Of a stretch of 64,000 bases of DNA, positions 50,219 to 62,818 are shown piece by piece. Position 1 is the stretch's first letter; each line of letters begins with the position of its first letter. The DNA comes from Myxococcales bacterium. GTDB lineage: Bacteria > Myxococcota_A > Bradymonadia > Bradymonadales > GCA-2716585. Both the position numbers and the translations under genes were made by a program. The DNA lies in assembly GCA_002716585.1 (NCBI GenBank), contig PBBL01000003.1, positions 62,001 to 126,000 on the forward strand, given 5' to 3'. Below the pieces are notes generated by a model. It was not told the DNA's origin, did no database searches, and saw only the letters and a list, made by a program, of their open reading frames with translations.

Positions 50219-52270
50219 CTACGCGAGCACCCGGACCTGCGCCAGCTCAACGGCGGTGTCGAAGATGACCTCGTCCTCCTCCTCGCTGAGGTCGATCGCC
50301 GCGTCGTCGTCAAAGACCACGTCGTGGTTGCCCGCCCGCAGGCGCGCGAGGCGCTCGTGGAGCGGCTGGAGGTCGAAGAGGTGCGGGTCAGGCCTCCCGT
50401 CGGGCGGCGCGAGCGGGTCGAGGTCGAGGTCGGCGGCGATGGCGGTGATCTCGGCGGTCACGACGCGCTCAGGGAGGTTGGGGAGGTTCCCGAAGCCCTC
50501 CTCGACGGCGCGGGCGGCGTCCATGAAGGCGAGCTGGCGGTCGCCGCGTTTGAGGGCGCGGCGCAGTGAGACGAGCAGGCCCCGGCGGAGGTCTCGGAGC
50601 ATCCCCTCGTGGGCGCAGGCGCGGGCGGCGTAGCGGGCGGTGGCGCTGAGGACCGCGGTGCTGATCGCCATCAGCGTCAGCGCCCCGCTCCCGACGATGA
50701 ACAGGGGAGCGCTCTCCACCGCCGAGAGCACGCCGACGCCCACCAGCGCCATGGAGTAGGTCCCCGCCACGAGGCGGTCGGAGGCGACGAGGTGCCCGCG
50801 GGTCAGCCCGACGATGTTGACTGGCGCGCGCCCCTCGGGCTGGTTGCTCCGTCGCTGCCAGCCCGACTGGGACGCGGGCTCGATGTACTCGGCCTCGATG
50901 TCCTGCGAGAGCGCGCCCTCGATGTCGTCCAGGAGCCCCGGGGGGAAGGCGAACGCCATGTCGCCGTCGTCGGTCATCTGGAGCTGGCCGTCGGCCAGCG
51001 CGCAGAGGCGGACGCCCAGCTCGATCGCCTCGCTTTGGCTGAGGCCCTCGCTCAAGACGAGGTCGAGGGCCGAGATCGCCCCGCCGCGCTGCTTGGCGAG
51101 CAGCAGCGCGCGGGCGCCCATGTCGGTGTCCTGAGGGCGACGGTGGGCGAAGGTGCGGCGGAGCGCCCGCGTCGTGCGGAGCACCAGGTCGTTGGTCGGG
51201 AGGTAGCGCTCGGTCCAGTCGATGATGTCCGCCTGGCGAACCCAGTCCGAGGGCGAGATGTCGCCCGCCTCCTCGCGGCGGGTCACGGAGCGCCACAGGC
51301 CGCGCACCCAGACAAAGAGCACCGTGGCGGTCGCCGCGATGATCATCAGCAGCACGATCACCACGATCACCACCAAAATCGCCTCGCCGAGGCCGTCGCC
51401 GTCGCTGTCGCCGCTGCCCCCAGAGGAGCTGCTGGACGACCCGCCGGAGAACCACGATCCACCCGAGAACCACGATCCACCCGAGGAGCCGCCGCCGTAG
51501 GCGGTGCTCGGGGTGGGATCGACCCAGAGCCAGGCCGAGGAGCCGTTGGAGGAGGAGCCGCCGCTCTTGCGCCTCGCCCGCTTGCGGGGCTCCTCGCTGG
51601 CCTCCAGGTCGCCGAGGCGCGGCCCCGAGATGAACACCGGGGTCAGCAGCAGGTGCACGACCCACCCGGCGACGAGGTTGACGACGAAGAACACCGCGAG
51701 CAGCGCCAGGCCAATGAGCCCGACGACGAGCCGGTCCTCCTCGGGGCCGCTGAACATCTCGACGAGCGTCAGCCCCGCGCCGAGGCCGAGGGCCAGGACC
51801 GGCCAGGCGGCGCCGATGTTGGCGAAGACCGCCAGCCCGAGCAGGAGCGCCCGCAGCGGCCAGCTGCGGGCGCGTCGGGAGCGGAGGGCGGCGACGTCGC
51901 GCGCCTCGAAGTCGTGCAGCATGCGCCCCTGGGCCGTGATCCTCAGTCGGCAGGGGATCTCCTCGCGCAGCTTCGCCAGCGCCTCCTCGATCACCTCGGC
52001 GTCTTCGCCGAGCTGCCCGGCGAGCGCGCTCGCCTCAGCGCCCTTGACGCCGTCCTTGAAGCGCTTGAGGAGGGCCGACTCGGCGCGACGGATGCGCGCG
52101 TTCCAGCGCCGCTCGGCGTTGCCCTGGACCGGCCGCGCCGCGGGCAGCACCGGCATGATCTCACGGATCGCTCCGGGGGAGACGCGCCGGGAGCGGGTCA
52201 GGATCCAGGCGATGAGGTGTGCCAGCGGGACGGACGCCAGCAGCGCGATGAGGAAGGGGGTGACGTTCAT
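50219..52270 (-). CDS. Multi-pass membrane protein with Gly/Ser-rich loop, unknown function
   Basis: The 683-residue product has an N-terminal helix (FLIALLASVPLAHLIAWIL) and a cytoplasmic charged domain that looks like a winged-helix or alpha-helical bundle (NARIRRAESALLKRFKDGVK). A pair of hydrophobic stretches follows (LRALLLGLAVFANIGAAWPV, VGLIGLALLAVFFVVNLVAG). Then comes a Gly/Ser-rich loop with GGSWFSGGSWFSGGSSSSSS, another helix (ILVVIVVIVLLMIIAATATV) and a long C-terminal cytoplasmic part with further hydrophobic segments. The WFSGG loop recalls DUF2207/TPM-type proteins, but I cannot assign a family. A 21-bp duplication encodes the repeated GGSWFS. It is next to a second membrane protein gene on the same strand. 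Confidence 0.65.
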   Translation of the reverse strand: MNVTPFLIALLASVPLAHLIAWILTRSRRVSPGAIREIMPVLPAARPVQGNAERRWNARIRRAESALLKRFKDGVKGAEASALAGQLGEDAEVIEEALAKLREEIPCRLRITAQGRMLHDFEARDVAALRSRRARSWPLRALLLGLAVFANIGAAWPVLALGLGAGLTLVEMFSGPEEDRLVVGLIGLALLAVFFVVNLVAGWVVHLLLTPVFISGPRLGDLEASEEPRKRARRKSGGSSSNGSSAWLWVDPTPSTAYGGGSSGGSWFSGGSWFSGGSSSSSSGGSGDSDGDGLGEAILVVIVVIVLLMIIAATATVLFVWVRGLWRSVTRREEAGDISPSDWVRQADIIDWTERYLPTNDLVLRTTRALRRTFAHRRPQDTDMGARALLLAKQRGGAISALDLVLSEGLSQSEAIELGVRLCALADGQLQMTDDGDMAFAFPPGLLDDIEGALSQDIEAEYIEPASQSGWQRRSNQPEGRAPVNIVGLTRGHLVASDRLVAGTYSMALVGVGVLSAVESAPLFIVGSGALTLMAISTAVLSATARYAARACAHEGMLRDLRRGLLVSLRRALKRGDRQLAFMDAARAVEEGFGNLPNLPERVVTAEITAIAADLDLDPLAPPDGRPDPHLFDLQPLHERLARLRAGNHDVVFDDDAAIDLSEEEDEVIFDTAVELAQVRVLA

Positions 52271-55219: not shown

Positions 55220-56200
55220 CTAGCGCTGGGCGCGGCGCTCGATGTGGTCGAGGACGTGGGGTGTGAAGCGGACCCCGGTGAAGCGCTCGGCGTCGAGGAA
55301 GCCGCCGGTGGCGAAGGCGTTGATCTCGACGAGCTTGCCGCCGATGAAGTCGAGCCCGGCGAGCAGGATGCCGTCGTCGCGGAGCTTCGGGCCGACGGCG
55401 GCGATCACCTCGCGCATGGCGTCGGTGATGACGGCCGGGGTGGCGCGCCCGCCTGCGTGGATGTTGCTGCGGAAGTCGCCGGCGCCGGGGACGCGCTGGA
55501 CCGCCGCGGCGTGGCCGTCCACCTCGATGAGTTGGCCGTCGAGGAGGATGAGGCGGCAGTCGCCGGAGGTCGCCTCGGGGATGAACTCCTGGGCGATGAC
55601 GTAGCCCTGGCGCGACAGCACGTCGATGATCTGACGGATGTTCTCGCGGCCGGGGCCGATCTTGAAGACGTCGCGCCCCCAGGTCCCCTGCAGCGGCTTG
55701 AGGACGGCGGGGCCGTCCACGGTGTCGAGGAAGGCGAGTATGGCGTCGAGGTCGGTGGTGATGAGGGTGCGGGGGCGAAAGCGGGCGGGGACGTTGCTCA
55801 GGTAGAGCTTGCTGTCGGCGCGCTGGAGGCCGTCCGGGTCGTTGAAGACCGCCACGCCGTGGTCGCGGGCGAAGCGGGCGAGCGCCAGCGCGGCGCCGTG
55901 CGCCCAGCCGCGGCCCGCGTCGCGGGCGGGGTTGGTGCGCAGCAGCAGGACGTCGCAGGCGGAGAGGTCGATCGGCTCGGCGTCGGCGGCCTTGAGCGCG
56001 GCGAGCAGGGCGGCGCGGTCGTCGGCCGGGGCGACGCGGTGGCCGAGCCCGATCACCCGGTCGGCGGGGGAGAGGCCGAGGTGGGCGACGGAGGCGACGT
56101 GGACCTCGTGGCCGCGTGTGGCGGCCTCGGCGATGAGCATGGTGGTGGTCTGGCTGGCCTCCAGCTCTTGAACGTCGTTGACGAGTACGGTGAACTTCAT
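55220..56200 (-). CDS. ATP-grasp ligase, glutathione synthetase-like (GshB/RimK type)
   Basis: I chose ATG 56200, which overlaps the preceding stop by four bases and follows CCAGGAGGAGCAGTC. The 326-residue protein follows GshB: MKFTVLVNDVQ-like N-terminus, LLLRTNPARDAG, a linker helix with NDPDGLQRADSKLYLS, VLKPLQGTWGRDVFKI (Gly-rich ATP loop and Lys), YVIAQEFIPEATSGDCRLIL (Arg/Asp of the metal site) and LVEINAFATGGF with the Glu-Asn metal ligands. Such enzymes join a carboxylate, activated as acylphosphate, to an amine. There is no gamma-glutamylcysteine ligase beside it, so it may make a different dipeptide. It is the third gene of the overlapping operon. Confidence 0.85.
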   Translation of the reverse strand: MKFTVLVNDVQELEASQTTTMLIAEAATRGHEVHVASVAHLGLSPADRVIGLGHRVAPADDRAALLAALKAADAEPIDLSACDVLLLRTNPARDAGRGWAHGAALALARFARDHGVAVFNDPDGLQRADSKLYLSNVPARFRPRTLITTDLDAILAFLDTVDGPAVLKPLQGTWGRDVFKIGPGRENIRQIIDVLSRQGYVIAQEFIPEATSGDCRLILLDGQLIEVDGHAAAVQRVPGAGDFRSNIHAGGRATPAVITDAMREVIAAVGPKLRDDGILLAGLDFIGGKLVEINAFATGGFLDAERFTGVRFTPHVLDHIERRAQR

Positions 56201-57243
56201 GACTGCTCCTCCTGGGGTTGGGGGGCTGTGTCGCGTCGCTTGTGGAAGGTCGCGGAGTCGTCGGCGAGGATCCCGAGGTGGAGGATCCGCGCGCCGGTCT
56301 GCCCGACGGGGTTGATGCTCTTGCCGATGACGACGCCGTCCTCGGGGCTCGGGTACTCGTGCATGAGGTCGCCGTAGACGTTGATGACGCGGGCCACGGT
56401 TTCGCCGCAGGCGACGTGCTGGGTGACGCGGGGGAACACCTCCAGGATGCCGCCCGCGTCGCTGTAGAGCCAGTAGGAGCTGCTGCACAAGACGGGCGGG
56501 TCGCCCATGGCGAGCTGCCGCCGCCGGGGGATCATGCCGACCTCGGCGAGCACGGCGCGCAGGCCGGTGACCGAGCGCTTGATGAGTTCGTTCTGGAAGA
56601 CGCCCGGGTTGCCGATCTCGACGGTGATGGCGGGGATGTCGAGCGCCTCGGCGGCGCCGCGCAGGGTGTGATCGCTGGCCGGGTTGTGGACGATGATCTG
56701 GGGCCTCTGGAGGTAGGCCATCTGCGCGGTCGTCTCCTTGGTCATGTCGGCGCGGACGTAGAGGCTGTTGACGCGCCCCGGGCTGGCGGTGTGGAGGTCG
56801 GCGAGGTAGTCGAAGCGGCGCACGCCCCGGTCCATGAAGCGGTGGGCGTAGATCTCGGGGACGCTGCCGTCGGGGCGGCCGGGCATGATGTGGTTGAGGT
56901 CGACCCCCTCGCGGAAGCGCCGCCGGTGCTCCAGGTAGCTGGGGACGTTGACGACGACGACGCCCACGACGGTCCCGCGCAGCGTGCGGCGGTCGAGGCG
57001 GTTGAGCAGCCGGTGGATGACCGGGATGCCGTTGAGCTCGTTGCCGTGCAGCGCGGCGGTGAGCCCGAAGACGGGGCCGTCGCGCTCCCCACGGGCGACC
57101 ATCACGGGGACGGCCATCGGGCGCCCGAGGCCGTCCTGGACCAGCTCGACCCGGAGGCGGGTCAGCTTCCCGCGAGGGCACATCTCTGGATCAAAGCTCT
57201 CGACGAGCCGCACCATGATGCGGCGGCTGTCGTTGTTTCCCAT
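56197..57243 (-). CDS. Succinylglutamate desuccinylase/aspartoacylase-family zinc hydrolase
   Basis: This M14-like zinc hydrolase cleaves acyl or amide bonds of N-acylated amino acids. Zinc ligands are His and Glu in ALHGNELNGIP and a later His in DLHTASPGR. The catalytic Glu is expected in ITVEIGNPG. The 348-residue product is close to AstE/ASPA length. GTG 57255 overlaps the upstream stop by four bases; ATG 57243 has a GTGAGG site and I prefer it, but the GTG is plausible. Both neighbouring genes are ATP-grasp ligases in the same operon, so it may act on their product or precursor rather than in arginine catabolism, for which no ast genes are present. Confidence 0.85.
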   Translation of the reverse strand: MGNNDSRRIMVRLVESFDPEMCPRGKLTRLRVELVQDGLGRPMAVPVMVARGERDGPVFGLTAALHGNELNGIPVIHRLLNRLDRRTLRGTVVGVVVVNVPSYLEHRRRFREGVDLNHIMPGRPDGSVPEIYAHRFMDRGVRRFDYLADLHTASPGRVNSLYVRADMTKETTAQMAYLQRPQIIVHNPASDHTLRGAAEALDIPAITVEIGNPGVFQNELIKRSVTGLRAVLAEVGMIPRRRQLAMGDPPVLCSSSYWLYSDAGGILEVFPRVTQHVACGETVARVINVYGDLMHEYPSPEDGVVIGKSINPVGQTGARILHLGILADDSATFHKRRDTAPQPQEEQS

Positions 57244-57251
57244 GGGGGCCC

Positions 57252-58694
57252 TCACGTGATGATCTCGGAGACGAGCGCCGGATCGGGGTTGATGGAGCGG
57301 AAGAAGCGTTGCCGGAAGCGGTTGCGCTGGGTGACGAGCTGGTTGGCCATCTCGTCGATCGCGGCCATGGCCAGGACGGTCTGGATGTAGGCCTCGATCA
57401 GGTCATCGAGGCCGACGCCGAGGAGGTTGAAGTCCCGGCTGTCCATGAGCGTGAGGCGCCCGTGCTCGGTGTCCCAGCCGCCTCCGTCGGTCTTGACCGA
57501 GAGGTTGGTGCCGAGCATCGACCACGACTGCATCCCGGTGGGGCGCTCGGCGGTGAGCGGCGAGCGGGCGCGGCGGGCGTAGATCGCGACGGGGTAGAAG
57601 CCGTCGGGGGAGGCGCCGACCATGAAGCGCATGTCGGCGACGAAGATCTGCCCCTTGCGGTTGGGGATGGTGCCGAGCTGGTTGAGCTGCCCCTGGCGCC
57701 CACGGGAGCTCCACCGCGTGTGGCCGATCAGGGCCTGGACGATGAAGCGGTCGTAGGGGGGGTCCTGGTCCATGAAGGCGTCCAGCTCCTCGTTGCTGGT
57801 GACGGTGAACACCCCCTGCCCGGCGTTGCTGTAGGGCACCTTGATGACCGCCGAGCCGCCCATCCGCGCGACCCACAGCGGGACCTCGGCGCGGTTCACG
57901 TCCCAGATCGTCTCGGGGGTGCGGATCGTGAGGCCGGTCTGCTGGATGCGGGCGTTGTAGAGGTCGTAGGCCTTGGCGGCGAGCATCTTGTTGCGCCCGC
58001 CCGCCAGGCAGATGAGGACGGGGTTGAACAGCGGCGTCCGCGTGACGGGCGGGAGCCGGTTCCAGGGGCGCTGGGTGACGTAGCGGAACGCGGCGCGGAT
58101 CGGGGCCCAGGCGCCGTCGGGGTCGCGCACCTCCAGGACCCGGTCCTCGGTGAACCGGAAGGCGCGGTCCTCGGTGGAGTCGGGGGCGTAGATGAGGTGG
58201 ACCGGCTCGTTGGCGAGGTCGGCGAGCGTGGCGGCGTAGCCGGTGTTCTCCATCGGGTTCTTGTCGTAGAGGACCGCGAGGCCGCCCTGGGGGAGGTTGC
58301 GGCGCTTGAGCATCGGCATGAAGGAGCGCTCAAGGAGCATCCGGTAGCCCGCCTGATCCTGGTCCTCGGCGAGCGGCGGCATCGACTTCTGCCCGGAGGG
58401 GCAGGAGTTGGTCTCGATGACGACGATCTGGCGCACGCCGTGCTCGGTGGTGACCGCGAACAGGTCGGTGCCGCCCCACCGGTAGTGCCGGGGGGTGTGG
58501 CTGAGCGCGGCGCGGATCGCCTCGGGCTTGACCTCCGGGTGGAGGTGGGCGTAGCGCTCGGCGATGCGCTCATTCTTGAGGTTGAAGAAGTAGCGGATCA
58601 GCGGGTGGACCTGAGCGTTGAGGACCTTGGTGTAATAGTGGTCCTGGCGCTCAAAGCTGCCCGGTTGAATGACTCGGCTGATGGGTTCTGACAT
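57252..58694 (-). CDS. Unfamiliar ATP-grasp-like protein, first gene of the three-gene operon
   Basis: I chose ATG 58694 (GAGGAC before it). The 480-residue protein has no family I can name, but its middle and C-terminal parts show ATP-grasp logic. [18 protein letters not shown] matches the Lys plus Gly-rich loop, and [12 protein letters not shown] is a typical adenine-strand segment. [20 protein letters not shown] with RRARSPLT resembles the Asp-Arg metal region, and METNSCPSG-type text near residue 90 (ETNSCPSGQ) may be a substrate loop. It carries no signal peptide. It probably activates a carboxylate with ATP. The three genes overlap by four bases each, so they are expected to work together. 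Confidence 0.65.
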
Positions 58695-58747
58695 GGTGCG
58701 CGTCCTCGTGGCTTGTCGAGGCGAAGGGGCCCCGTATCCCGGCCAGG

Positions 58748-58785
58748 AACCGCGGTTATATGGGGCGGCCCCCAACGGGTGTCAA
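58748..58785 (-). promoter_or_regulatory. Promoter for the ATP-grasp operon, with a 10-bp palindrome at the start site
   Basis: On the minus strand TTGACA (58785-58780) is a perfect -35. A -10 is CATATA at 17 bases (58762-58757) or TATAAC at 19 bases (58760-58755). The palindrome AACCGCGGTT (58748-58757) overlaps the -10 end and the likely start site, where a repressor could bind. The leader to ATG 58694 is about 50 bases. Confidence 0.5.
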
Positions 58786-58798
58786 CACAAAAAAAGGC

Positions 58799-61700
58799 TC
58801 AGGGGGGTGTCTCGCGGGCCGCCTTGACGATCGCGGGCGGCAGGTCGTCGGGGAGCTGCCCGAACAGCAGCGCGGTTCCGTCGGCGTGGGCTTCGAGCGT
58901 GTGCTCAAGGAGCTGCACGGCGCGCCCGACGGCGCTCCCCGGAGGGGCGTCCATGGTGGCGAAGCGCGCCTGGGCGTCGGCGGCGTGGGTGGAGGGGTCC
59001 CGGTTGGTGGCGAGGGCGAGGTGCGCCTTCTCGCAGAGGCAGAGGATCTGGCCGTGCAGCTCGTTGAGGGCCTCAAAGAGGCTGAGGGCGTGGTTGACGT
59101 TGTTGCGGGCGCGGGCGCGGTCGCGGGTGAGCCGGTAGAGGCGCGCGCGGTAGAGGTGGGTGAACGCCTCCAGGCGGCGATCGCCCAGCTCGCGGGCGGT
59201 GGCGATCGCCAGATCAAAGAGGTCGCGCGCCTGTCGGTGCTGGCCCCGGTCGCGGTAGAGGGAGCCGAGGTTGGCGAGCGTGTAGCCCTCGCTGCGGCGG
59301 TCGCCGATGCTGCGCTGGAGGCTGAGCGCCTGCTCGTAGAGCTTGATCGCCTCGGCGGTGCGTCGCAGCTCCTGGTGGGCGTGGGCGAGGTTGCCGAGCA
59401 CCTGCCCCTCGTTGCGGCGGTCGCCCAGCTCGCGGAAGATGACGAGCGCCTTGAGGGCGGCCTCGTGGCTTGAGGCGTACTCGCCGAGGTCCTGCTCCAG
59501 CACGGCGAGCCGCCCCCAGACGAGCCCGGTGCGGCGCCGGTCGCCGATCTCGACGAGGATGGTGAGGGCCTGGCTGTAGTTCTCGCGGGCCTCGACGTAG
59601 CGGCTCTGGAGCAGGTGGAGGTTGCCGAGGTTGAAGAGGGCGACCGCCTCGCTGCGGCGATCGCCGATCTGACGGAAGACCTGGAGCGCCTGGGTGCTCA
59701 TCTCGTCCGCCTGCTCGTACTCGCCGCGGCTGAGCGCCAGGAGCGCGATGTTGTTCAGGGTGCGCGCCTCGCTGTGGCGGTTGCCGACGCCGCGGTAGTA
59801 GTCGAGGAGGCGGTCGAAGGTCGCCCGCGCCTCCTCGGTGCGCCCCTGCTCCTTGAGGGCGAGCGCCTTGTTGCCCTGGATGCGGTACTCGACGGGGCGG
59901 TCGCCCGCGCTCTGGAGGATCTCGATCGCCTCGTCGTAGAGCGCCATCGCCTTGGCGTACTCCCCCTGGCGCTGGTACAGCAGCGCGATCTCGCCCAGCG
60001 ACTCGCCCATGCTGCTGTGGTCGCTCAGGGTGCGGAAGATGTTGTAGGCGTCCTTCTGGTGTTGCATGGCGAGTTCGATCTCGCCGGCGTTGAACAGGAT
60101 GCGGCCGAGGATGAAGAGGGCGCGCCCGCGCTCGGGCATGAGGTTGTGGCTCTGCGCCCCCTCCAGCGCGACGTTGACGGTGTAGCGCGCCTCCTCGCTG
60201 CGCCCCTGGACGAGGAGGACCCGCTCGATGAAGTCGAGGTGGGCGCCGATCATGTCGGGGGGCGGGGGGTTGATCAGCTCAAACCCCTCCTGGTCGGGGG
60301 TGAGCGCGAACGCCTGCTTGAAGTAGCGCTCGGCGTCGGAGAGGGCGAAGCGGGCGGCGCTGAAGCGCGCCTCCTTGAGGTAGGCCTGACGGGCCTCGTC
60401 GATCTGCCCGGCCTTCTCCAGGTGGTGGCCGAGCATGCCGGGGGAGATGTCGGTGCCCTGGGCGCGGTAGACCTCCAGGACCCCGGCGATCTGGCGGTGG
60501 AGGCGCGCCCGGCGGCGGCGCGGGAGGCGGAGGTAGGCGACCTCGCGCAGCTTGTCGTGGGCGAAGCGCCAGGAGCGTCGCCCCGCCGGGGTGAGGATGT
60601 CGCGGTCGACGAGGTCGTCGATGGCGTCCTGCACCATGGCGCGGGTGTCGGGGGAGGCCCCGTTGCCGACGCCGACCCAGCCGTCGGTGAGGATGTCCGG
60701 GTGGATCTGGTGGCCGAGCACGGCGGCGACCTCGCAGATCCGCCGCAGCCGGGGGGGGAGGCGGTCGAGGCGCGCGACGAGCAGCTCCTGGATGGAGCGG
60801 GGCTCGGCGACGTGGCCCACGTAGCTCGTCAGCGCGGTGGCGTCTCCGGCGAGGACCCAGCGGCCCGCGGCGTCGCGCACGAGCAGCTCCTGCTCGACGG
60901 CGACGCGCAGGTACTCCGAGACGTGGAACGGGTTGCCGCTGGCCTGCTCGGTGACGAAGCGCAGCAGCGCCGGGGGGGGCTGCTCCAGCCCCAGCTCCTC
61001 GCGGACCAGCGCGGTGACCTCGTCGTTGCTCATCCGAGGGATGCGCTCGGTGTGGACGTGCTCCAGCTCCGCGAGCTGATCGATCGCCGTCGGGGCGTGA
61101 TCGGAGCGCACCAGCCCGAGGATCAGCCAGGGGTGCTCGCCGAGGTAGCGCTTCGCCAGCACCCGGAGGCACTCCAGGGACAGCTCGTCGGACCACTGGA
61201 GGTCGTCGAGCACCATGACGACCGGCTTGTCGCTGCTCCAGGCCTTCATGGTGCGGCCCACCGCCGTGAACAGGCGGCTCTGCCCCGCCTCGGGGAGGAC
61301 GTCGCGGGTGTCCTCCGGGCGCGGGACCTCCTCGATCTGGGGCAGCTCCCGCAGGCAGGAGGCGTAGGTGGCGAGCAGCGGGGCGCGCTCCCCGAGCAGG
61401 CGCTCAAACTCGCCCTGCCCCTCCTGGAGGCAGCGGTCGGCGATGTTCATGAACAGCGTCTGGAAGGCGTGCAGCGGCGACGAGGCGAGGTCGGTCTCGG
61501 TGTCGATGGGGACGCAGTGCCCGGTGAGGACGGGGATCTTGTGGTTGCGGGCGCGGCGCACCAGCTCCTGCGCGATGCGCGACTTGCCCGAGCCGCTCTC
61601 GCCCTGGAGCAGGACGAGGCGCCCCTTGCCGGTCATCGCTTCGCGCAGGTGGGCGCCGAGGCGTCGCATCAAGGTGCGGCGGCCCACGAACTGAGGCTTG

Positions 61701-62818
61701 TAGAGGTAGGGGCGCGCGGGGCGGTCGGCCGGGGGGATCGGGATGCCGATCTCCTCCAGGACCGCGGTGACGACGTTGGCGTGGCCGGGGCGTTGGCGAG
61801 GGTCCTTGACGAGGAGCTGGACGATGAGCTGGTCGAGGGCCTTGGGGACCGCCGGGTTGAGGGAGCTGGGCGGGGCGGGCTCCTCGACGAGGTGGCGCCG
61901 CAGGTGCTGCGCGACGTCCTCCTCCTCCTCGAAGGGGACCTGCCCGGTCACGATCTCGTGCAGGATGCAGCCGATGGCGTACAGATCGGAGCGCGCGTCG
62001 ATCTGGTGGCCCTGGATCTGCTCGGGCGAGATGTACTGCACCGTCCCGGCGAGGATGCCGGTCGTCTCCAGGAGCGACTGGCTGACGCGTCCGCCGAAGC
62101 TGGACACGAGCCCGAAGTCCACGAGCTGCGGCCACCCCTCCTCGTCGTCGATCAAGATGTTGTCCGGCTTCAAGTCGCAGTGCACGACCCCCTCGCCGTG
62201 CAGGTAGGCCAGCGTGTGGCAGACCTGCCCGACCCACCGCAGGAGGGTGCGAATCACCTCATCAAACCCCCAGGCGTCGGCGGCGGGGAGCCGCGCGGAC
62301 GACGGCGGGGCGGCGGCGGGGCGGCCAGGGGAGGTGGCGAGGTCGGGCTGGTCGCCGGGCTTGCCCTGGATGGTGGCGAGCGGCGGGGCGGTGTCGTCCC
62401 GCTCACTCCCATCAAGCAGGACGAAGCTGAGCGGCTTGGCGAGCCCCTCGCTGAACGAGGCCTCCTCGCCGGACTCGACCGGGGCGAGCTGGCGGTGTCG
62501 GTGGCGGCGGCGCAGCTCACGGAGGTACCAGCTGAGGGCCTTGCCCTCCAGGTAGTCCATGGCGTACCAGGGGATGCCCTCGTGGAGCCCCTCCTCGTAG
62601 ACCTTGACCACCCCGGGGTGGTCGAGCTGGGTCATGACGCTGATCTCGCGCCGCAGGCTGCGGAGCTGCGACTCCTTGTGGGCGCGCAGCGTCTTGAGCG
62701 CGGCGCGCTGCCCGGTCTCCGTGTGCTCGGCCAGGTAGACCACCCCCATCCCGCCCTGGGCGAGCTGAGACACGACACGGTAGGAGCCCATGGTCATCGT
62801 TTGTGTGCTGACACTCAT
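58799..62818 (-). CDS. Ser/Thr protein kinase-AAA ATPase-TPR regulator (PknK/MalT-like)
   Basis: This 1339-residue protein starts with a eukaryotic-type kinase: G-loop AQGGMG (20-25), K42, E58, HCDLKPDN (213-220, with HCD replacing HRD), DFG (234-236) and SPE. A disordered insertion of about 80 residues (103-184) sits between the lobes. A STAND/AAA module follows, with Walker A GESGSGKS (406-413). The C-terminal half (about 870-1260) is TPR repeats of about 40 residues with recurring GDRRSE/GDRRNE turns. Myxobacteria have many such receptor-like kinases. Input is probably sensed by the TPRs. There is no membrane helix. The start lacks a clear Shine-Dalgarno site; internal ATG codons at residues 8 and 10 are alternatives. 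Confidence 0.9.
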   Translation of the reverse strand: MSVSTQTMTMGSYRVVSQLAQGGMGVVYLAEHTETGQRAALKTLRAHKESQLRSLRREISVMTQLDHPGVVKVYEEGLHEGIPWYAMDYLEGKALSWYLRELRRRHRHRQLAPVESGEEASFSEGLAKPLSFVLLDGSERDDTAPPLATIQGKPGDQPDLATSPGRPAAAPPSSARLPAADAWGFDEVIRTLLRWVGQVCHTLAYLHGEGVVHCDLKPDNILIDDEEGWPQLVDFGLVSSFGGRVSQSLLETTGILAGTVQYISPEQIQGHQIDARSDLYAIGCILHEIVTGQVPFEEEEDVAQHLRRHLVEEPAPPSSLNPAVPKALDQLIVQLLVKDPRQRPGHANVVTAVLEEIGIPIPPADRPARPYLYKPQFVGRRTLMRRLGAHLREAMTGKGRLVLLQGESGSGKSRIAQELVRRARNHKIPVLTGHCVPIDTETDLASSPLHAFQTLFMNIADRCLQEGQGEFERLLGERAPLLATYASCLRELPQIEEVPRPEDTRDVLPEAGQSRLFTAVGRTMKAWSSDKPVVMVLDDLQWSDELSLECLRVLAKRYLGEHPWLILGLVRSDHAPTAIDQLAELEHVHTERIPRMSNDEVTALVREELGLEQPPPALLRFVTEQASGNPFHVSEYLRVAVEQELLVRDAAGRWVLAGDATALTSYVGHVAEPRSIQELLVARLDRLPPRLRRICEVAAVLGHQIHPDILTDGWVGVGNGASPDTRAMVQDAIDDLVDRDILTPAGRRSWRFAHDKLREVAYLRLPRRRRARLHRQIAGVLEVYRAQGTDISPGMLGHHLEKAGQIDEARQAYLKEARFSAARFALSDAERYFKQAFALTPDQEGFELINPPPPDMIGAHLDFIERVLLVQGRSEEARYTVNVALEGAQSHNLMPERGRALFILGRILFNAGEIELAMQHQKDAYNIFRTLSDHSSMGESLGEIALLYQRQGEYAKAMALYDEAIEILQSAGDRPVEYRIQGNKALALKEQGRTEEARATFDRLLDYYRGVGNRHSEARTLNNIALLALSRGEYEQADEMSTQALQVFRQIGDRRSEAVALFNLGNLHLLQSRYVEARENYSQALTILVEIGDRRRTGLVWGRLAVLEQDLGEYASSHEAALKALVIFRELGDRRNEGQVLGNLAHAHQELRRTAEAIKLYEQALSLQRSIGDRRSEGYTLANLGSLYRDRGQHRQARDLFDLAIATARELGDRRLEAFTHLYRARLYRLTRDRARARNNVNHALSLFEALNELHGQILCLCEKAHLALATNRDPSTHAADAQARFATMDAPPGSAVGRAVQLLEHTLEAHADGTALLFGQLPDDLPPAIVKAARETPP

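Follow-up and report, generated by a model that had tools for sequence, protein, structure and literature searches.

A three-gene operon built on an unnamed ATP-grasp ligase family, an aspartoacylase-type zinc hydrolase and a GshB paralogue

In cyanophycin metabolism, an ATP-grasp ligase (CphA) makes an amide or isopeptide bond and a zinc hydrolase of the AspA fold (CphZ) cleaves one; according to one report, hydrolases annotated as AspA-family in cyanophycin gene clusters proved to cleave isoaspartyl dipeptides (PMC10206079). RimK and RimB are known as a tagging pair (PMC12239564). Here we describe an operon that shares the theme known from cyanophycin metabolism but builds it on an ATP-grasp family that has no name. 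The operon lies on contig PBBL01000003.1 of a Myxococcales bacterium (assembly GCA_002716585.1), within a stretch of 64,000 nucleotides (contig positions 62,001–126,000) that was analyzed as a whole and is referred to as the window; coordinates below are those of the window. It consists of three open reading frames on the minus strand, gene A (57252–58694), gene B (56197–57255) and gene C (55220–56200), joined by four-base overlaps just as a sequence-only reading of this DNA had described. At the A/B junction, a GTGA contains the stop codon of A (TGA, 57254–57252) and the GTG start of B at 57255, and at the B/C junction an ATGA contains the stop codon of B and the ATG start of C at 56200. No description of the A-B-C triad, part of which might be covered by Iyer et al. 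2009 on amidoligases, was found among the titles and abstract openings of the open-licence literature.

Gene A encodes a protein of 480 residues that matched no family in Pfam, NCBIfam, PHROGs or PADLOC, so the remark of the sequence-only reading that the gene at 57252 belongs to no family it could name still stands against Pfam and NCBIfam. A Pfam scan of 15 homologues at E≤10 returned a single chance match only, and neither phmmer nor profile searches against solved structures yielded a useful match. Faint traces of relationship were nevertheless seen: 11 of the 15 homologues, scanned singly, weakly touched the model of the RimK family (E 6.8e-4 for the best of them), the search with gene A weakly picked up GshB proteins in three relatives, and hhalign aligned 66 columns of A and C (25% probability, E 7.6e-4). 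Because that alignment is short and of low probability, the sequence link is weak, and it is the fold that carries the ATP-grasp claim. The AlphaFold model of A (pLDDT 81.3, pTM 0.87; models 2–5 had lower mean pLDDT of 69–79, and two short loops are unreliable) shows an ATP-grasp fold over nearly its whole length, bearing out the earlier proposal of such a fold in a predicted structure. All of its top structural matches are ATP-grasp ligases. Foldseek placed a putative glutathionylspermidine synthase first, followed by glutathione synthetases (E about 1e-9), while VIA-align placed first the putative gamma-glutamylcysteine synthetase 3k1t (Z 16.8, rmsd 4.5, 332 residues) and second LysX/ArgX (Z 13.5 over 222 residues). 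The likeness to 3k1t and to ligases of the glutathionylspermidine synthetase type includes the N-terminal part of A, but identity is 12% and A matches none of their Pfam or NCBIfam models. We take 3k1t to belong to PF08886, the GshA family of the ferrooxidans type; this model matched none of the 15 A members at E≤10, and it matched none of 95 relatives but also none of 14 controls, so the latter search is uninformative. In an alignment of 96 rows, K236, K285, D354 and R356 are invariant and D421 and N423 nearly so, with putative roles in nucleotide and metal binding given by motif, not by superposition. Gene A is, by predicted fold, an ATP-grasp ligase, and its enzymatic activity is a prediction from the model.

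The association of A with B was followed across genomes. Among the 95 relatives, A was present in 17 (E below 1e-100; three further weak matches were GshB proteins), and a close homologue of B (at least 46% identity, best E up to 4e-94) was found in all 17 of these and in 0 of the 78 that lack A. The two genes are neighbours in 16 of the 17 A-bearing relatives and lie on different contigs in the remaining one (G094). Of 119 genomes from the order that contains Saprospira grandis, 19 carried A. All 19 had a close B, as did one of the 100 A-less genomes (G337), where the B gene begins at the end of a contig. The cyanobacterial class had A in 2 of 145 genomes, and a close B was found in both and in one of the 143 without A (G168). 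Of 15 A-bearing genomes reached through individual loci, 14 have a close B. Fisher tests of the co-occurrence gave 4e-19 and 4e-21, values that are inflated by shared ancestry, and some genomes duplicate named loci (identical rows). A and B are the core pair and C is the more variable partner. Since A and B are strictly coupled and C more loosely, A and B may act at steps that follow or oppose one another, and C may contribute a variable part. B-C pairs were also seen on stretches without A in Enhygromyxa SWB007 (L147) and Paraliomyxa (L150), genomes in which A is located elsewhere.

One scan of 84,980 species genomes identified 535 confirmed places encoding A. In the best 80 of the 535, B was within 4 kb of A in 62 loci, and both B and a GshB/RimK-type ligase were within 4 kb in 45, although the counted ligase may be a separate RimK gene at L049 and L087; 36 of the 80 loci are near contig edges. 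Gene order varies (A-B-C, C-A-B, A-C-B and divergent forms). Among 48 homologous A-B pairs on the same strand, the gap ranged from -22 to 178 nt, and the -4 overlap recurred in 10. By record title, the phyla in which the set recurs include Myxococcota, Bacteroidota, Planctomycetota, Acidobacteriota and Cyanobacteriota; phyla represented by a single metagenome-assembled genome may reflect misbinning. The triad is therefore conserved well beyond close relatives, and its recurrence across phyla indicates an arrangement beyond chance. In G018 (locus L016), a genome of the window's own order, A and C both branch within the Saprospiraceae/Bacteroidota sets and the genes run A-C-B as in Saprospiraceae, which suggests that the whole operon was transferred horizontally as one unit. 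A defence or phage origin of the operon was considered and rejected: none of the three proteins matched the PADLOC anti-phage models, PHROGs gave no match, no plasmid or phage record matched, and none was confirmed in viral contigs. Clustering of the neighbourhoods found no fourth conserved gene beside the triad; the other clusters were a response-regulator-like superfamily, a small protein of Saprospiraceae, an MscS-like channel and what is apparently antisense noise. A gene for this MscS-like mechanosensitive channel, its family read by eye, directly follows A (L060, L062, L092) or B (L093) in four Saprospiraceae-type loci, a hint towards an osmotic function.

From the predicted folds, the conserved catalytic residues, the cross-phylum gene coupling and the separateness of C from the genome's own GshB (see below), we on balance favour the reading that the operon encodes a dedicated cytosolic amide-bond pathway, for a small peptide or isopeptide, that is distinct from glutathione synthesis. 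In such a pathway, A and C would each use ATP to activate a carboxylate and then couple it to an amine. B would hydrolyse an amide bond, either in the metabolite so made or in a precursor of it, and would thereby free a masked amine or return the product for reuse. All three enzymes would be catalytically active and would share a single metabolite, presumably a small one and not a protein. The idea of the sequence-only reading that these genes make or remodel a small peptide would fit such a pathway. More tentatively, A, B and C may make and turn over an undescribed small peptide-like metabolite, for instance an osmolyte, a storage compound or a cofactor, in members of at least five phyla, many of these members being marine or predatory, and A may found a new ATP-grasp family. 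Several observations weigh against this interpretation. No B lies within 4 kb of A in 18 of the 80 loci, and no B plus ligase in 35, which is partly due to contig ends. The exception among the 15 genomes reached through loci, G105, bears A but only a 31%-identical relative of B. The neighbourhood clustering found no conserved acyltransferase, transporter or carrier protein adjoining the set, and the nearest structural relatives of B are catabolic enzymes. In addition, a ligase and a hydrolase acting on one bond would form a futile cycle unless they were regulated or acted sequentially. As to G105 itself, its A groups with those of Planctomycetota although the record is titled Acidimicrobiales. 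In any case, A is encoded at several hundred places yet lacks a Pfam or NCBIfam model, and its near-perfect co-occurrence with B makes the two a sharply defined target for metabolite discovery. The pair is also carried by isolates, among them Saprospira grandis, Sulfidibacter corallicola, Acanthopleuribacter pedis, Leptolyngbya and Enhygromyxa.

The product of gene B (348–352 residues, the alternative start being ATG 57243 instead of GTG 57255) matched PF24827, the AstE/AspA catalytic family, at 107.3 bits against a cut-off of 25 (E 9e-31). In an alignment of 74 rows, H66, E69, H151 and E209, to which the roles of zinc ligands and catalytic glutamate are assigned by membership of the family, are invariant in all 74, as are R108, R164 and R195; R157 is kept in 71. 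B scored below the equivalog cut-offs for DoeB (61.8 against 402.7 bits), AstE (20 against 305.65) and AspA (16 against 180). Its closest characterized relative is DoeB, the N-acetyl-2,4-diaminobutyrate deacetylase, with which it shares both domains and the zinc site, but the NLNR of DoeB reads DLNH in B: the arginine position of this DxNR motif is His118 in the window's protein, and histidine occupies it in 51 of the 74 rows, arginine in 14 and other residues in 9. The model of B (pLDDT 91.3) matched 3cdx (Z 33.7), DoeB (Z 32.7) and CphZ (Z 29.1 over 299 residues) across both domains, whereas carboxypeptidases and aspartoacylases gave Z of about 17–19. These two-domain matches suggest that the substrate is a small amide or (iso)peptide. 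As modelled, B is a two-domain zinc amide hydrolase of the aspartoacylase/DoeB type, with its activity predicted. Despite the shared fold, the system differs from cyanophycin metabolism in that family matches place neither A nor C with the cyanophycin synthetases, and in that B resembles DoeB more than CphZ, the latter not being among the sequence matches of B. It also differs from the pairs in which a RimK-type ligase adjoins a B-like hydrolase (24–32% identical to B; L146, L153, L154, L159 and L160), since these need no A partner and are present in A-less relatives such as G005–G009. Such RimK-type pairs are widespread and separate from the triad, occurring in the same genomes and in others.

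The structure of B bears on two alternatives. In the first, the operon would be a writer and eraser of a protein tag, with A and C adding amino acids to a protein in the manner of RimK and B removing them. There is precedent in the RimK/RimB pair, C and A resemble ligases of the RimK/LysX type, and B shares an M14-like fold with the tubulin deglutamylase CCP5, at a lower Z (17.6). On the other hand, B carries the second domain of small-molecule hydrolases, with Z of 29–34 against about 17–18 for carboxypeptidases, and no target gene is conserved beside the set. Because the model of B matches small-molecule hydrolases over both domains, we regard protein tagging as unlikely. The second alternative is a protecting-group route, in which A and/or C would extend an N-acylated amino acid and B would remove the acyl group at the end, by analogy with the synthesis of amino acids under LysW or acetyl protection. 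The kinship of B with the deacetylase DoeB and the second rank of LysX/ArgX in the fold comparison of A fit such a route, but neither an acyltransferase nor a LysW-like carrier is conserved in the neighbourhood, and the arginine of the DoeB DxNR motif is replaced by histidine in B and in most of its homologues. This route likewise has little probability in our judgement, and a dedicated small-molecule amide-bond pathway remains the reading that we prefer.

The distinctness of that pathway from glutathione synthesis rests on gene C and on the rest of the genome. The 326-residue product of C matched PF02955, the GSH-S_ATP domain, at 143.6 bits (cut-off 23; E 5.5e-42) and is homologous to GshB (1gsa) along its whole length (E 6.4e-31), but it falls below every NCBIfam GshB cut-off (299.4/408, 201.5/272 and 198.5/299 bits). 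In a tree of 92 rows, whose root is arbitrary and whose deep forks are weak, 25 triad C rows group with one further row (support 99/94) and away from canonical GshB, among which is the genome's own copy (L105), and the third genes of Saprospiraceae form a separate set (100/100). D90/P92, NEK and TSPT are invariant in all 39 canonical GshB rows and missing in C, as they are in almost all of 27 triad rows; C has lost the RKDPP(F/V)D, NEK and VTSPTG motifs while retaining the ATP and magnesium residues. Judged by its sequence, then, C is a GshB paralogue with an apparently changed active site, separate from the GshB of the same genome, and no equivalence of the operon to a known pathway was found. 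The host genome, which is 65.6% complete, encodes a canonical GshB (234 bits, contig C11) and a ligase of the GCS2 family (199.8 bits, contig C34). The statement in the sequence-only reading that glutathione pathway genes are absent is consequently wrong beyond the window, and the presence of these genes elsewhere indicates that the operon is not the glutathione pathway of this organism; together with the loss of the GshB loops from C, it led us to reject glutathione synthesis as the principal explanation of the triad.

The same separation is seen in relatives. Matches to PF02955 in 57 of them fall into three classes, canonical (184–238 bits), triad (98–159) and weaker RimK-like (at most 78). 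Canonical GshB is present in 13 of 14 A-bearing relatives (all but G019), and the triad class in 12 of 14 (not G035 or G043), always less than 2 kb from A and in no A-less genome among the 57. GCS2 matches of at least 135 bits were found in 12 of the 14 (not G002 or G019) and PF04262 in none of them. In Saprospira grandis, the triad copy is the sole PF02955 protein. A variant thiol pathway, with A as a gamma-glutamyl ligase, C as a GshB-like ligase producing a glutathione analogue and B in an editing role, could draw on this last case, on the GshB ancestry of C and on 3k1t as the best fold match of A, but we consider it very doubtful given the canonical GshB kept alongside in nearly all A-bearing relatives, the loss from C of loops invariant in GshB, and the failure of A to score on any GshA model.

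Upstream of the operon, the sequence-only reading had pointed to a TTGACA promoter and a palindrome. A promoter-like element read directly from the minus strand (58755–58785) does contain an exact TTGACA (58785–58780), followed after 19 nt by TATAAC (58760–58755), the end of which is overlapped by the palindrome AACCGCGGTT (58757–58748). However, a sigma-70 scan allowing spacers of 16–18 nt called no promoter upstream of A. The palindrome occurs once in the window, but when the 104-nt intergenic region was shuffled 2000 times, 307 of the shuffled sequences contained a perfect 10-bp palindrome, and upstream of A in 92 homologous loci there were no exact copies and one with a single mismatch; a regulatory palindrome was accordingly rejected, and this part of the earlier reading adds nothing to the interpretation. 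A gap of 104 nt separates the start of gene A from a large upstream gene of the kinase/TPR type, likewise on the minus strand (58799–62818); the translation of this gene, read by eye, is that of a large protein kinase that also has ATPase-like and TPR-like parts. At 50219–52270, also on the minus strand, a predicted membrane protein contains a Gly/Ser-rich stretch with repeated GGSWFS units.

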